A DNA stretch of 64,000 nt from Dulcicalothrix desertica PCC 7102 (lineage in GTDB: Bacteria > Cyanobacteriota > Cyanobacteriia > Cyanobacteriales > Nostocaceae), in NCBI RefSeq assembly GCF_003991905.1, contig NZ_RSCL01000004.1, positions 335,934 through 399,933 of the forward strand. The letters run 5' to 3'. The translations under genes were made by a program, and so were the position numbers. The notes under the pieces were generated by a model. The model saw only the letters and a program-made list of their open reading frames with translations. It was not told the origin of the DNA and ran no database searches. Shown piece after piece: positions 1,930 to 39,572 of this stretch; the stretch's first letter is position 1, and each line of letters starts with the position of its first letter.

Positions 1930-4737
1930 CTAAAGCTTATTCCAAGGTAAAAACAAATCCTGTTGTATTTGCCTTTTCATGGCAACAGTAATATTTTGGT
2001 TATCCTCAGCATTTTTAAGACATTTGACTAAAAATTTATGAGCATAATAATATTGTTTCAATTTATTTTCTTGTTTCTCATCGCTAAACAACCAGTAATA
2101 GCCTATTTTCCGATATTTGATTGCAATATTTCTTAGGTTTTCTAGAAATTCTCCAGAATATTCTATTTCTTGTGATTTTAATAAATTAGGTACTTCATTT
2201 TCAAGCTCAATCAGTGCTTGATTCAGTTGTGAATCACAATCACGGCAATTAGGCAAAGAAACATTTTTAATTGGAATGCCTAAACTGGTAAATATAATTT
2301 TTTCAACAAGCATTAAATCAATTCCTAAATCAAATTCCTTTGCAGTAAAAAGGTTATTGATAGCTGTATTTCCTTTTTGTAAATCTTGTTCAAAATTTTT
2401 ATCAATATCACATGCTAAAGATAAGTTTATATTACGTACTGAGGATGCATCGAAAATCATTTCTAAAGCAAGAGATAAATAAAATGCACGAATAGTAGCT
2501 GGTTGATATTTTGTTTCAAATTTATTTAAATCTGATTTATTTACTACCCATAGTATTACATCTTCTAATTCACTACTCTCATCATTTTTCATAAACTCAT
2601 CTATTTGCTTTTTTAAAAATTGTAGTTGTTCAAAATTCCAATCCATGTCAGCGACAAGAGAAAAAACTTCACGCCATCTTTCATCACCAAAATTTTCAAT
2701 ATACTTAATAATTGTAGAATCAGAGTTATTAATTAATGTCTTAACTTTTCTTGCTGTAAAATATTCTTGAAAAGTTAAATGAGAGAAAGAATAAATTTCT
2801 TGTGCCCTCTCTACTAATAATCCATGTTGTATCTCTATTGACTCTAAAACTAAACGACTATCTTGTAATAAAGTAGCTAAATTATTTTCATTGTAATCAT
2901 ATAAAGAGGAAAAATAATCAACTATATCTTGTTTAATTTCATCTTTTTTGAAGAAATAACGACTAATTTCAAATTTTTTGGCTGCTATATAAGTTAAAAG
3001 CTCTATTTTATTTTCTAATGATAGTTTCCCGTACACATTAGTTCTTTTTACTCCTTTTGCCTCATCCCACTTTATAAGTAAAGCTTCTATACCTCTCTTA
3101 TACAACGTAGAAATATTTGAAGGAAATTCTAACTTAGTTTGAAAAGCTAAACATGTCAACGTTAGAAGTATTGGTGTTACGGCTATATCAAGTAATTGAC
3201 TATTTTCTGGTAACTGTAACTGCTCAATAAATTTTTGTGATTTAATTATTCCGTTTTGAATATTTTTATCAATTGCAGTAAACCAATTTCTAGCAAAAAT
3301 ATTTATTTGTTCTTTACTGAAATCAGCTATTTCGATATCTCTAAAATTAGAAAATTTATATTTATGTGCAGCGATTCTACAACTAATAATATATTTATTT
3401 TTAAAATATTGTTTATAAAACCTGTCTATGCATTTAATAACTTCATCATTATTATTTTTTGATACCTCATCTAAACCATCAAGTAAAAGCATTACTCTTC
3501 CATGCTCCAGAAGATTACATAAAATTATTTCTTCTTTGATACCGCATGAATCTAAGTCTCTTATAATATATTTGAATAAATCAAAAGTTCCTATTGTTTT
3601 TGAAAAATCAGCAAAAGCTTTAAGATTAATAAAAATAGGAACCCTATCCATTTGTATTTGTTGCTCATTACACTGAAGAGCTATACGTTTTAAAAACGTA
3701 CTTTTACCTGAACCTGGTTTACCTAAAACCATCAAATTATCATATGTTTCCACAGCAAAAAAACCATCAACTCTAGGTTGGTTGACTTGACCCAGACGAA
3801 AACGGTCAAATTCATGAGTTTCCTGGTCATAGATTGGAGGAATTTCAGATAAGTCTAACCATTGATAACTAGCAGGCTGATTTAATATATTGACATCTAC
3901 ATACAGATCATCCATTTCAATTGGTTTAGAACAATATAATATATGAAGCTTTCCGCATAAATCTACGATTTTATTAGCATATTGTGAACGTACTTGTGGT
4001 ACTAATAAAATCAGTGTTTTAAGAAAATTTAAATCTACAACTTGTTCCCATGTTAGATTTAAGATTGAGCATATTTTAATAAATACTTCTTTTTTAACTG
4101 GTGCCACTCTGTAAAAATTCTCTACATCATTTTCGCTTATGCCTAGATGTTTTGCGAATAATCTTTGCTTATCTTTATCAGACAAGCTAGGCACAATTTT
4201 ATTCATTTTTTGTTTATCAATCCAGTTTAAATTTCCTTGCTTTTCTTTTGTTTGTAATCTCAAAAGCTCTTCTTGACGATTATTGATTTCATTTAATACA
4301 GGATAACTCTTGTCAATACATTCTTTAATTTGATTTACTGTTGAGGTATCAATTTGTAATAGCCTTGCAGTTTTAAATAAAGTAGTTAAGTCAATATGTA
4401 AATTATCAAGTTTGAAATTAAATGTATTACTTTTGTTAAGACAGTTTAACTCCTCTAATGATTTTGTATCACCAATCGATACATCTAATAGTTCAGGCTT
4501 AAATTTAGCAAATAAAGCATACAAGTCTCGGCGTTTTGAACGACGTTCATCTACAAAATCATTTTCAAAGCCAAATATTTTGCAAATTTCTTCAATGTGC
4601 TTCCTAACTGTACTTTGTGTAATTTGTAAATATTTTGCAATTTCCGAGTCTGTCTTGTTTTCTAAAAATTTTAGCAATACTTCTTTACGTCTTTTGGTTA
4701 GCTGGCTAAATACTACCTCAAAGCGTTTTTTATCCAT
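1930..4737 (-). CDS. HTH-NACHT NTPase (STAND/NLR-like protein)
   Basis: A 935-residue signal-transducing NTPase. The N-terminus has a LuxR-like helix-turn-helix (LTKRRKEVLLKFLENKTDSE, then IAKYLQITQSTVRKHIEE). Near residue 195-240 there is a second helical segment (GISENDVENFYRV) of the kind seen ahead of NACHT domains in cyanobacteria. The NACHT core shows Walker A GKPGSGKST near residue 335, Walker B LLLDGLDE near 417, an SCR sensor, and the winged-helix signature FSHLTFQEYFTARK. The C-terminal 250 residues are helical and unrecognised. I chose the ATG at 4737 over the upstream one at 4770 because the HTH begins there. Known relatives include anti-phage bNACHT proteins and regulatory STAND proteins. 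The gene is AT-rich and has no GGCGCC. Next to restriction-modification genes a defence role is plausible but inferred. Confidence 0.85.
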   Translation of the reverse strand: MDKKRFEVVFSQLTKRRKEVLLKFLENKTDSEIAKYLQITQSTVRKHIEEICKIFGFENDFVDERRSKRRDLYALFAKFKPELLDVSIGDTKSLEELNCLNKSNTFNFKLDNLHIDLTTLFKTARLLQIDTSTVNQIKECIDKSYPVLNEINNRQEELLRLQTKEKQGNLNWIDKQKMNKIVPSLSDKDKQRLFAKHLGISENDVENFYRVAPVKKEVFIKICSILNLTWEQVVDLNFLKTLILLVPQVRSQYANKIVDLCGKLHILYCSKPIEMDDLYVDVNILNQPASYQWLDLSEIPPIYDQETHEFDRFRLGQVNQPRVDGFFAVETYDNLMVLGKPGSGKSTFLKRIALQCNEQQIQMDRVPIFINLKAFADFSKTIGTFDLFKYIIRDLDSCGIKEEIILCNLLEHGRVMLLLDGLDEVSKNNNDEVIKCIDRFYKQYFKNKYIISCRIAAHKYKFSNFRDIEIADFSKEQINIFARNWFTAIDKNIQNGIIKSQKFIEQLQLPENSQLLDIAVTPILLTLTCLAFQTKLEFPSNISTLYKRGIEALLIKWDEAKGVKRTNVYGKLSLENKIELLTYIAAKKFEISRYFFKKDEIKQDIVDYFSSLYDYNENNLATLLQDSRLVLESIEIQHGLLVERAQEIYSFSHLTFQEYFTARKVKTLINNSDSTIIKYIENFGDERWREVFSLVADMDWNFEQLQFLKKQIDEFMKNDESSELEDVILWVVNKSDLNKFETKYQPATIRAFYLSLALEMIFDASSVRNINLSLACDIDKNFEQDLQKGNTAINNLFTAKEFDLGIDLMLVEKIIFTSLGIPIKNVSLPNCRDCDSQLNQALIELENEVPNLLKSQEIEYSGEFLENLRNIAIKYRKIGYYWLFSDEKQENKLKQYYYAHKFLVKCLKNAEDNQNITVAMKRQIQQDLFLPWNKL

Positions 4738-21210: not shown

Positions 21211-21346
21211 GACGGGCAGGGATGCCCGTTCCACAAGAAACTAATTATACATTTCACAAGAAACTAATTATACATTTCACAAGAAATTAATTATACATTT
21301 CACAAGAAACTAATTATACATTTCACAAGAAACTAATTATACATTT
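21211..21346. repeat. Hairpin repeat with a five-copy 23-bp tandem tail
   Basis: The hairpin GACGGGCAGGGATGCCCGTTCC is followed by five copies of a 23-base unit beginning CACAAGAAACTAATTATACA, at 21232, 21255, 21278, 21301 and 21324. A decayed sixth follows. The region from 21141 to 21510 otherwise holds a weak GGGATGGGCATCC hairpin near 21162 and the leader of the first large LRV gene; there is no other gene. Confidence 0.88.
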
Positions 21347-21510
21347 TATAAGAGATTTATTCTACAAGAAAGTTTTAAAAGACAGGCGCCTTTGTAGTGT
21401 ATGTGCCTAGTAATACCAACAATGTGTATGTAAAAGAATACACTATAAATACATACGTGTCTGAATGACGGCGACTTGACTCACCACTGTAGAGGACAAG
21501 GAAAATTACG

Positions 21511-33475: not shown

Positions 33476-35257
33476 CTATTTGGCCCCATTTGGACGTTGA
33501 ATAATTGTCTCCATCACTCGGCGCCTATTTTTTGGGTCGATAGCAACTAATCTAATATATTCATTGCTAAAGTCACCCAAAGATGACTCGATAGCAGAAA
33601 CTAGATCGGACGCAGCGCTAATTTCTCCTACTGTACAGCTTTGCCATGAACCCATTTTAAAACGGCGTTCGTCAACGTGTTCAATACCTATTTTGTAACC
33701 CTTAGACAAGATTTCGCGAACTAGTTCTTGAGTCTCTAAGGTGAGATGAGTGCTGGGTGCTAGCTGTGCATTTTCTGTATATTGCTTGTAGTATTCTCCG
33801 TTATTTATAAGGGGTGTTGTAACTGGGTTTAAAGATGGTGCATTTGAAGGTGAATGATATGGTGTGCCAACTGGGAGCTTAGGCGCCGAATTAGCTAGCA
33901 TTCCAACACCAGCTACAACTGGCGCCATAATCGGGGCGTGATGAGTTTGTTCCTCAACTACCTCTACAACATGTTGTTTGTATGGTGTGCCCAATGGTGT
34001 TGCAGCAGGCGCCTTAAATGGTGTGCCAGATGGTAGTTTAGGCGCCGAATTAGCTAGCATTCCAACACCAGCTACAACTGGCGCCATAATCGGGGCGTGA
34101 TGAGTTTGTTCCTCAACTACCTCTACAACATGTTGTTTATATGGTGTGCCAAGAGGCGTTGCAGCAGGTTGTCTGTATGGTGTGCCAGATGGCAAACTCG
34201 GCGCCGAATTAGCTAGCATTCCAACACCAGCTACAACTGGTGCCATAATAGGCGCCGACCTATCTGGTGCTACAGTTGGTGTGTTAAATGTTGTTGTTAC
34301 AACTTCTGTAACACCCACATCATTACTGTAAATTGGCGCTGGTAATGCTTCTACCCTAGATACAGCTTTACGCGAAAACAATCCACGATTATATTCTTCT
34401 ACTAATTTAGAATTTTGTACGCGCTGTTGTTCTCCTACCATCAAATTACCCATTTCAATCAGGTACGGTAATTTAAAGTTGGGTTTTCTAAATTGTGGCG
34501 GACCTTCAACACTGTTAACTACCCGCTGCGATACCTTCTCTATACCAATTTCATGAATAAAGTGCCGGATTTGTTCGTCGTAAATGCGAGAACGCAACGC
34601 GCTGAAAAAGTCAATAGACTGATTAATAAAGGTATCAACAAACTGTTCAATTTCACGACGCGATAATCCATCAGATTCATAAATTCCACCGACAATACCA
34701 ACTTTGTCATCACGGTCAGGTTCCCAATAGAACTTCTCCATGCGTCCATCGCGTACTAAAGGCGCATACAGTGTAGAGAAATCATTACCCGTAACAATAA
34801 TTGGTATTCTAGGTAATGGCGTTGAGTCGTAACTACCCGGAAGTTGTACATCTGTTGGATTATCCGCAATATTCATTAATGTCGCGTTGACCAACTGCGT
34901 ATTAACCGTATACTGTGTTCCTTCATCAAAACGTCCGGCGCCTGCATCCAAATCATTAATCATTAGTACGCACATCTTACCGCGTACTTTAGTTAACTCA
35001 GCAGTTTCTCGATAGCGTAACCGAATCAAGCGTGCAGGGTCGCCAGCATCAGGACTTTCTAACTCACCCCCAGATATCAGGGTGAATTCAATACCCATTC
35101 TCTCAAAAACTAATTCGCATTGGAACGATTTTCCTTCACCCTTACGTCCGTGAATACCCAAAATCAACGGAACGCGCACAGCAGGTAGATTTAAGAAATT
35201 TTTAGTAATGTGTACAGCAAGTTTATCTAGAAATTTCGGAGCGATGTAATAACCCAT
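33476..35257 (-). CDS. rca: Rubisco activase with repeat-expanded linker and SSU-like tail
   Basis: A 593-residue AAA+ protein that removes inhibitory sugar phosphates from Rubisco and, through its tail, is recruited to carboxysomes. The AAA core (residues 1-290) has Walker A HGRKGEGKSF, Walker B CVLMINDLDAGAG and IIVTGNDFSTLYAPLVRDGR. The C-terminal ~90 residues are a Rubisco-small-subunit-like domain (VREILSKGYKIGIEHVDERR, FKMGSWQSC). Between them, where relatives have a short linker, lies a long Pro/Ala-rich region with a 53-residue unit (APIMAPVVAGVGMLANSAPK...) repeated almost three times. The usual cyanobacterial form is around 420 residues from memory, so the repeat explains the extra length. 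Transcribed alone. Confidence 0.92.
   Translation of the reverse strand: MGYYIAPKFLDKLAVHITKNFLNLPAVRVPLILGIHGRKGEGKSFQCELVFERMGIEFTLISGGELESPDAGDPARLIRLRYRETAELTKVRGKMCVLMINDLDAGAGRFDEGTQYTVNTQLVNATLMNIADNPTDVQLPGSYDSTPLPRIPIIVTGNDFSTLYAPLVRDGRMEKFYWEPDRDDKVGIVGGIYESDGLSRREIEQFVDTFINQSIDFFSALRSRIYDEQIRHFIHEIGIEKVSQRVVNSVEGPPQFRKPNFKLPYLIEMGNLMVGEQQRVQNSKLVEEYNRGLFSRKAVSRVEALPAPIYSNDVGVTEVVTTTFNTPTVAPDRSAPIMAPVVAGVGMLANSAPSLPSGTPYRQPAATPLGTPYKQHVVEVVEEQTHHAPIMAPVVAGVGMLANSAPKLPSGTPFKAPAATPLGTPYKQHVVEVVEEQTHHAPIMAPVVAGVGMLANSAPKLPVGTPYHSPSNAPSLNPVTTPLINNGEYYKQYTENAQLAPSTHLTLETQELVREILSKGYKIGIEHVDERRFKMGSWQSCTVGEISAASDLVSAIESSLGDFSNEYIRLVAIDPKNRRRVMETIIQRPNGAK
33888..34260. repeat. 159-bp tandem repeat within the Rubisco activase linker
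   Basis: The marker GAATTAGCTAGCATTCCAAC starts at 33888, 34047 and 34206, exactly 159 bases apart, so the period is 53 codons and the frame is kept. The first and second intervals are almost identical, implying recent duplication. Six or seven GGCGCC sites fall inside this stretch. Confidence 0.95.
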
Positions 35258-38477: not shown

Positions 38478-38732
38478 TTGATTTTGCTTGTGCGATTGGG
38501 GTAGCTTTAATAGTAAGGCACTGTCTATTCTAAAACGATTGGGCGAACGAGCTTCATATGTTTGCATTTTTCGCACGCTTCAAAAGGATTATTTGGCGCC
38601 ACCCGTTAAGGTCAAAAATTTCACCCCTATTTACCACACGAGACGTATTTCACTTTGAGTGTCCTTTATCACAAAATTAAATATATATCAAATACAGCGC
38701 CTGAATGCCTTCATAGCTACAGGGAGATAAAA

Positions 38733-39572
38733 ATGGCCAATAAAAAAACAACTAAAGCAAGTACTAAGAGTGGTGCGCCTAAAGCTGAATCAAAAGCTAG
38801 ACCAAAGCGAAGCAATACAGCTTCTAAAACTGCCTCTACAAAGAAGCAAGATGAAATTCAGAAAATTGCTGATGTTGAATCGAGTGACCTTGACATTACA
38901 AAAACACTTGATATAGACGGTAAACGTCCCGTTGCTGCCAGTTCTTTCGAGGTTGTAGATACTTTTAACGTTGAAGAGCGTCCTACTGTTAAACATGAAG
39001 CATCATTAGCTACTCAAGATAAAAAAACTACTGATATAGACAATCAACGTCCTGTAGAATCGAGTGACCTTGAAATTACAAAAACGCTTGATATAGATGG
39101 TAAGCGTCCAGTTACTGCTAGTTCTTTTGAGGTTGTAGGTACTTTTAACGTCGAAGAACGTTCAGCAATTACAACATCGAATGCCAAAAATAGTAAAACT
39201 ACCAAAGCGAATAAAACTAAAAAAAGTAAAAAAACTGCTGATAGTGATTTAGAATACAATCATACTATAGATATAGATGGTCGGCGCCCTGTTGACCCAA
39301 GTTCTTTCGAGGTACTAGATACTTTTGATGTAGATGGTGAGCGTCCAATTACCTCGAACAATTCTGAAGTACTAGATACTTTTGATGTAGATGGTGAGCG
39401 TCCAATTGTTTCTAGTAATCTCGTATATGATGAAACAATAGATATAGATGGTCGGCGCCCTGTTGACCCAAGCAATTTAGAATTGGCAGGTTCTTTGAAT
39501 ATAGATGGCGAACGTCCGGTAGGAGCAAGTCAAATTAAGGATCAAGGTATTACATCTGATTACTTAGATTAA
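38733..39572 (+). CDS. DIDGRRPV-repeat protein of unknown function
   Basis: A 279-residue, highly charged protein. The N-terminal 50 residues are Lys/Ser/Thr/Ala-rich (MANKKTTKASTKSGAPKAES). The rest is built from a degenerate motif (L/I)(D/N)(I/V)DG(K/R/E)RP(V/I) followed by xxSxxEVxxTF, with about ten occurrences between residues 62 and 260, split by a second Lys-rich segment (TTKANKTKKSKK). GGGAG precedes the ATG at 38733, which is preferred over 38655. There is no membrane segment. Predicted largely disordered with acidic-aromatic beads; a scaffold or multivalent binding role is possible. No family recognised. Confidence 0.7.
   Translation: MANKKTTKASTKSGAPKAESKARPKRSNTASKTASTKKQDEIQKIADVESSDLDITKTLDIDGKRPVAASSFEVVDTFNVEERPTVKHEASLATQDKKTTDIDNQRPVESSDLEITKTLDIDGKRPVTASSFEVVGTFNVEERSAITTSNAKNSKTTKANKTKKSKKTADSDLEYNHTIDIDGRRPVDPSSFEVLDTFDVDGERPITSNNSEVLDTFDVDGERPIVSSNLVYDETIDIDGRRPVDPSNLELAGSLNIDGERPVGASQIKDQGITSDYLD

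Follow-up and report, generated by a model that had tools for sequence, protein, structure and literature searches.

The window analysed here, a stretch of 64,000 nucleotides from Dulcicalothrix desertica PCC 7102, carries a gene for a Rubisco activase in which the linker between the ATPase core and the small-subunit-like (SSUL) domain holds a tandem array of 53-residue units. The locus raises the question of how this tether came to be enlarged, and whether the repeats do more than connect the two parts of the enzyme. In our judgement, the array may bear on how an activase stays among densely packed Rubisco and yet moves.

The activase gene and its genome

As judged by Pfam profiles and by solved chains, the gene (Table 1) is an SSUL-type (carboxysomal) Rubisco activase with its AAA+ and SSUL domains intact. 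The protein was matched above cut-off by the families AAA (PF00004, residues 35-177, 51 bits), Rubisco activase AAA-helical (PF21228, residues 182-277, 140.8 bits) and RuBisCO_small (PF00101, residues 505-589, 59.2 bits with a cut-off of 27), and thus includes the AAA and AAA-helical domains and the C-terminal SSUL domain of an SSUL-bearing activase (ALC/Rca). Residues 3-291 matched the solved activase chain 6z1d_A (E 7.6e-168), residues 504-592 matched the solved Rca SSUL chain 6has_A (E 2.9e-31), and GRKGEGKS at residues 37-44 is the P-loop. The identity of the protein and the position of the repeats between the AAA core and the SSU-like domain, as given in an earlier note on this DNA, were therefore right.

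This is the only AAA-core Rca match in the genome. The other three matches, all of them SSUL domains, lie in a single frame of 590 aa, CcmM, which is surrounded by ORFs (cluster L115) that, read by eye, we take to be ccmK, L, M, N and O-like. A single RbcS (PF00101) is encoded on a different contig, and the genome thus includes both a Rubisco small subunit and, as far as the ccm-like ORFs read by eye indicate, beta-carboxysome genes.

Table 1. Positions in the window of the activase gene, its domains and the elements of its linker.
Feature	Position	Strand	Basis
Rubisco activase (Rca / activase-like protein of cyanobacteria), 593 aa	33476..35257	-	one open frame
AAA+ core, residues 1-291	34385..35257	-	Pfam and solved chain 6z1d_A
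Linker, residues 292-502, predicted disordered	33752..34384	-	
Pre-array linker, residues 292-335	34253..34384	-	
Unit 1, 53 residues (336-388)	34094..34252	-	Tandem Repeats Finder
GTPY motif 1, residues 358-361	34175..34186	-	
GTPY motif 2, residues 370-373	34139..34150	-	
Unit 2, 53 residues (389-441)	33935..34093	-	Tandem Repeats Finder
GTPF motif 3, residues 411-414	34016..34027	-	
GTPY motif 4, residues 423-426	33980..33991	-	
Half unit 3, 26 residues (442-467)	33857..33934	-	Tandem Repeats Finder
GTPY motif 5, residues 464-467	33857..33868	-	
Post-array linker with NNGEYYKQY, residues 468-502	33752..33856	-	
Small-subunit-like (SSUL) domain, residues 505-589	33491..33745	-	Pfam PF00101, 6has_A

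The array in the linker

Tandem Repeats Finder reported an array at 33859-34249 with a period of 159, 90% matches, 0 indels and a score of 633. The earlier description of almost three 53-residue units of 159 bases was correct as to in-frame, near-identical tandem units, but the number of copies is 2.5. Units 1 and 2 are identical at 140 of 159 bases (88%) and 49 of 53 residues, and the half unit shares 68 of its 78 bases with unit 1 and 73 with unit 2. A smaller repeat with an offset of 36 bases lies inside each unit, so that a full unit has two G-T-P-[Y/F] motifs and the protein has five.

When compared with itself, the linker scored 69, where 300 shuffles gave at most 6; the AAA core and the SSUL domain scored 4 and 2, respectively. 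A comparable repeat is hence absent elsewhere in the protein, which bears out the claim that no other part of the gene is repeated. The tether had also been described as Pro-rich and dotted with hydrophobic residues, in agreement with its composition (P 14%, A 13%, V 12%). Aromatic residues make up 5.2% of the linker, as compared with a median of 2.9% in linkers shorter than 60 residues and 10.2% in the array-less linker of the congeneric genome G063.

A protein search of the window's own genome with the 53-residue unit returned the gene itself alone. With the DNA of the unit, 42 matches were obtained up to E 10, and only the three array copies rose above background (next E 0.035). A mobile or genome-wide repeat was thereby ruled out, the unit being confined to this gene within its own genome.

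Seven GGCGCC sites lie within the linker region 33760-34390. This hexamer is in excess across the window (109 vs 60.5 expected), GATC is depleted (19 vs 152 expected, Markov estimate) and HIP1 GCGATCGC is absent from the window. The window also contains a 23-bp tandem repeat at 21232-21353 (5.3 copies, 95% matches) and, at 38655-39572 (+), a 305-aa ORF with a TTG start and several copies of a D-I-D-G-x-R-P-V-like motif.

Predicted structure of the tether

The AlphaFold2 model, computed from 38 sequences (that of the window protein plus 37 from a set of 80 relatives), had a mean pLDDT of 58.1 and a pTM of 0.44. The AAA and SSUL domains were folded in this model, with core stretches 105-118, 138-144 and 159-178 below a pLDDT of 50. 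Linker residues 285-502 were also below 50, with block means of 25-31 over residues 301-500, and secondary structure was absent from residues 299-506, where no helix was predicted. The 211-residue linker is thus predicted to be unstructured. It is about five times as long as usual, the first linkers of 121 array-free distinct activases having 26-120 residues with a median of 42.

Copy number and origin of the array

Seven congeneric genomes were compared, including that of the window (G000); among the others are Calothrix sp. PCC 7103 (G060), HK-06 (G061) and PCC 7716 (G065), and the MAG FI2-JRJ7 (G064). The array is present in six of the seven and absent from G063. Counted as half-units (A motif), the copy number is 0 in G063, 2 in G062 (diverged) and in PCC 7716, 3 in G000, PCC 7103 and HK-06, and 4 in FI2-JRJ7, and the linker, 59 residues long in G063, reaches 153-263 in the six carriers. 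The comparison of linkers in relatives that had been proposed thus found an array common to most of the genus, and the suggestion that copy number may vary proved right between species. With 0, 2, 3 or 4 half-unit copies, the species of the genus form a natural series in which the role of the linker is testable without design, the catalytic cores of the five closest being near-identical.

In a tree built on 64 of the 127 distinct activase cores, G063 is the first branch of the genus and the other six genomes group together (support 94/80), the five closest among them with support 95/89. Given the position of the array-less G063, gain of the array within the genus is the simplest account. The first units are mostly nearest to the first units of other species; unit 1 of the window is 0.92-0.94 identical to these and 0.87-0.88 to its own neighbours. 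The last units are likewise nearest across species in PCC 7103, PCC 7716 and FI2-JRJ7, those of HK-06 being mixed, and the last unit of the window is close both to its counterpart in HK-06 (0.96) and to unit 2 of the same protein (0.94). In FI2-JRJ7, units 1 and 2 are identical in DNA. This pattern of similarity fits unequal recombination, with the caveat that FI2-JRJ7 is a metagenome assembly. The best explanation is that the tether grew inside one genus when a 159-bp unit was tandemly duplicated in frame, and that whole units were later gained or lost.

A search of the family with the unit matched 7 of 217 genomes, namely six from the genus and a single weak match outside (G070, 32%, E 1.1e-4, in an 838-aa frame). 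Of the 127 distinct Rca, six have GTxY in their first linker, exactly the six array carriers. The 53-residue array therefore appears to be essentially confined to one genus.

Constraint on the units

Evolution is faster in the units than in the core (dN/dS ~0.37-0.55 vs ~0.06). For the core, dN/dS is 0.016-0.069 over the 21 pairs that the seven genomes form and 0.061 for G000-G062; for the units, in pairs that are not independent of one another, it is 0.37 for units of one genome, 0.38 for those of close species and 0.55 against G062, and for the B half against G062 it is ~1.0. Among 15 close units (10 of full length), 37 of 53 columns are invariant, and 25 of 53, GTP and VAGVG included, are the same in these units and in unit 1 of G062, a comparison at which the core dS is ~0.42-0.48.

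All 17 copies of the A half in the unit alignment have G, T, P and Y/F, and G, T and Y are held in 11/11 copies of the B half with P in 10/11, so that every unit copy retains an aromatic G-T-[P/A]-[Y/F] motif. In the 28 copies of GTP[YF] found by pattern, the aromatic codon is TAC, TAT or TTT and the G codons also vary, while the T and P codons hardly vary (ACA in 28/28, CCA in 27/28). Retention of the aromatic residue hints at constraint, with few independent changes behind it.

The hydrophobic stretch PIMAPVVAGVGML shows 3 synonymous and 2 non-synonymous changes, as compared with 23 and 19 in the rest of the unit (Fisher p = 1.0). As the stretch is poor in both types of change, its sameness may be due to homogenisation of the DNA. 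Purifying selection on the hydrophobic half was considered on account of a pooled dN/dS of 0.095 and was rejected, since the per-column counts of 3 vs 2 give no evidence for it.

Activase linkers across the order

In an order-level search, the AAA core was matched at E 1e-60 or better in at least 212 of 388 genomes. The set surveyed for linkers comprises 127 distinct activases, each with at least one detected SSUL domain, and is enriched for expansions because some of its regions were picked mostly for long frames. Self-repeats were found in 31 of 136 linkers at the floor p of 0.005 and in 40 of 136 at 0.05 (200 shuffles each, uncorrected). By eye, a 22-residue duplication is seen in genus g8, that of Scytonema sp. 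RU_4_4 (L117, L128, L129), a 13-residue repeat in G236 (L139), and further linker duplications in G178 (L147), G260/G428 (L136, L137) and Scytonematopsis contorta (L097). In Hassallia byssoidea VB512170 (L038, match 3001-4662) a linker-SSUL module is duplicated, with ERRF in both SSUL domains. Among single-SSUL activases F-x-Y-P occurs in L136 and L137 alone, both with duplicated linkers. In a further genome, the activase match at G155:C1:2039653-2040456 extends no further than residue 268 of the core, the open frame there having 278 aa.

Size-variable linkers in the activase family are already described in the available text of one paper (PMC7059596). From the repeats listed above, we read the tether as one that grows by tandem duplication in several lineages, a disordered and repeatedly evolving part of the protein.

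A second array in genus g47

In genus g47, which belongs to the window's own family, all eight genomes found (G184-G191; L153-L160) encode an activase of 627-790 residues. Behind its AAA core comes linker 1, in which a Y-x-A-R-P segment is repeated, and then a first SSUL domain that lacks the RRF motif. Linker 2, where S-[T/S]-F-x-Y-P occurs 2-11 times, leads to a final SSUL domain with YVDQRRF. In total there are 61 copies of the motif, 55 of them distinct in DNA over 14 codons. The first count used a pattern that itself required F-x-Y-P; in a recount, each position was left out in turn and a window was accepted if it agreed at 6 or more of the remaining 7, and S, F, Y and P were each present in 61/61 copies. 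Four codons are used for S and two for F, while Y is TAT and P is CCA in 60/61 each. The copies are spaced 14 to 20 apart except for one 34-residue gap, which spans a degenerate copy. A degenerate copy in L154, GTAFHYP, lies outside both counts and still has F-x-Y-P. Of the 144 aromatic residues in the array spans, 122 fall inside counted motifs.

A search of the family with this array matched 9 of 217 genomes, the eight of g47 and one weak match (G144, 110-aa frame, E 3.3e-4), and in four g47 genomes every match falls in the activase frame. G189 also has a second activase (L161, G189:C10:71312-72181), an ordinary 438-aa frame ~13 kb from the long one.

As g47 and the Calothrix group stand apart in the core tree and their arrays are unlike in sequence, we infer independent origins. 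The motif in g47 looks constrained, and the corresponding evidence in the Calothrix group is weaker. A different repeat-filled tether in a second genus hints that the tether may be more than a connector of two parts.

Mimicry of RbcS was also considered, given the resemblance of STF[HR]YPP to RbcS ETLSYLPPL. Local alignment with a g47 RbcS gave shuffle p values of 0.54 and 0.44 for two versions of the motif and 0.75 for a third, the Calothrix motif gave 0.99 and two pre-SSUL linker ends gave 0.94 and 0.68, and the idea was rejected. The 'displaced motif' of PMC7059596 is, by the description in its available text, a helix in the SSUL structures and not a linker motif.

Role of the array

The preferred reading, to which a probability of about 45% is given, is that the disordered tether, enlarged by duplication, acts as a sticker-and-spacer chain tuned by copy number. 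The SSUL domain would bind Rubisco, as reported for the activase family and specifically for ALC (PMC7059596, available text), and the activase ring would remodel it. Each unit would add a flexible Pro/Ala/Val-rich spacer and two aromatic G-T-P-[Y/F] motifs, these motifs would add weak contacts in the Rubisco condensate, and copy number would tune how firmly the activase stays there. This role is plausible and is favoured by analogy with PYCO1, a passive spacer being almost as likely.

A passive spacer would be a near-neutral by-product of duplication in a weakly constrained, disordered linker, its copy number being without consequence and any in-frame sequence being tolerated so long as it is flexible and soluble. 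The higher dN/dS of the units than of the core points that way, as do the self-repeats common in other linkers (in a set enriched for long frames, at uncorrected p values), the wide variation of linker sequence between lineages and the size-variable linkers for which the family is known (PMC7059596, available text). Stickers are further opposed by the high dN/dS of the units against G062, above all in the B half, by the possible homogenisation of PIMAPVVAGVGML, by T and P codons in the Calothrix group and Y and P codons in g47 that hardly vary, by an aromatic content below that of the array-less G063 linker, and by the lack of a predicted helix of the kind repeated in EPYC1-like linkers. The 25 columns unchanged as far as G062 at that core divergence tell against a passive spacer, as do S, F, Y and P in every counted g47 copy despite varying spacing and S and F codons. 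A sticker role is plausible, and better supported in g47 than in the Calothrix group.

A role in reach, in line with the idea of the earlier note that a long tether would change the distance between ring and SSU-like domain, is improbable. Here the longer tether would put ring and SSUL domain on different Rubiscos or keep the ring mobile in a dense lattice. By a generic scaling law the end-to-end distance would rise from ~5 nm for 42 residues to ~13 nm for 211, about one Rubisco diameter, but the contour of a typical 42-residue linker is already ~16 nm, so that 211 residues are poorly explained by reach alone; lengths from 59 to 263 residues inside one genus and a conserved motif, unnecessary for pure reach, also tell against it. 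An assembly artefact or misjoined repeat, allowed for in the earlier note, can practically be dismissed. Tandem repeats are a known assembly hazard and the identical FI2-JRJ7 units come from a metagenome, but units 1 and 2 of the window differ at 19 of 159 bases, and the array recurs in five other assemblies of the genus, the PCC 7716 chromosome, a complete genome, among them, which contradicts an artefact. The C-terminus of CcmN docks on the carboxysome shell, and PIMAPVVAGVGML, a repeated hydrophobic stretch between Pro/Ser/Gly-rich flanks, could be a similar encapsulation-peptide-like helix. This is highly unlikely, as no helix is predicted (block-mean pLDDT <32 for residues 301-500), the stretch is by eye unlike the C-terminus of the CcmN-like ORF in the same genome (L115), and it occurs in part of one genus with one weak match elsewhere.

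The sticker-and-spacer reading can be extended to both genera: the activase linker would have become a multivalent sticker array independently in at least two cyanobacterial genera, and activase would also be a tunable cross-linker of Rubisco condensates, convergent with pyrenoid linkers and with a strength set by repeat number. This extension is rather unlikely. If the g47 arrays are stickers, bacteria would have in them an equivalent of the repeats of pyrenoid linkers, here incorporated into the repair enzyme itself.

Comparison with known systems

Linker-size variation is already in print, and no description of the Calothrix or g47 arrays was found in a limited literature search on activase linkers and tandem repeats; the arrays are unmentioned in the available portions of PMC8580825, PMC8787814, PMC13370225 and PMC13159521. 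The protein resembles the Nostoc-type Rca/ALC (6z1d, 6has) in its AAA+ core, AAA-helical domain, one C-terminal SSUL domain and linker without predicted structure, and differs from other SSUL activases in the length of that linker and in the array that it holds.

PYCO1, a linker protein of the diatom pyrenoid whose repeats are KWSP and GTGYNP, likewise has tandem repeats with a conserved aromatic motif, and its aromatic repeat motifs act as stickers (PMC10288592, available text). By eye, GTGYNP is loosely similar to GTPYRQP. In Y-to-A mutants of GTGYNP, homotypic condensation was strongly impaired and Rubisco was still bound (PMC10288592), so that the analogy favours self-association over Rubisco binding. 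Unlike PYCO1, a Rubisco-binding scaffold, the array lies between an ATPase and an SSUL domain. EPYC1 and CsLinker, as described in the available text of PMC11570498, are also largely disordered, with repeats spaced within 20-120 residues, but their repeats hold structured helical binding elements. Of these properties, the activase linker thus has the disordered tandem repeats without a predicted repeated helix, and the comparison with PYCO1 and EPYC1 is one of function.

A parallel in layout is with CcmM (M58/M35), the SSUL scaffold of the beta-carboxysome, in which SSUL domains are likewise carried on flexible linkers (PMC8580825, available text). A search for the 53-residue unit gave no match in CcmM of the window's genome, and F-x-Y is absent from three CcmM proteins (G000, G060, G062). 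Unlike the activase, CcmM has a gamma-carbonic-anhydrase-like domain (PMC8580825) and, in the window's genome, three SSUL domains, and it is this layout that the two-SSUL activases of g47 and Hassallia approach.
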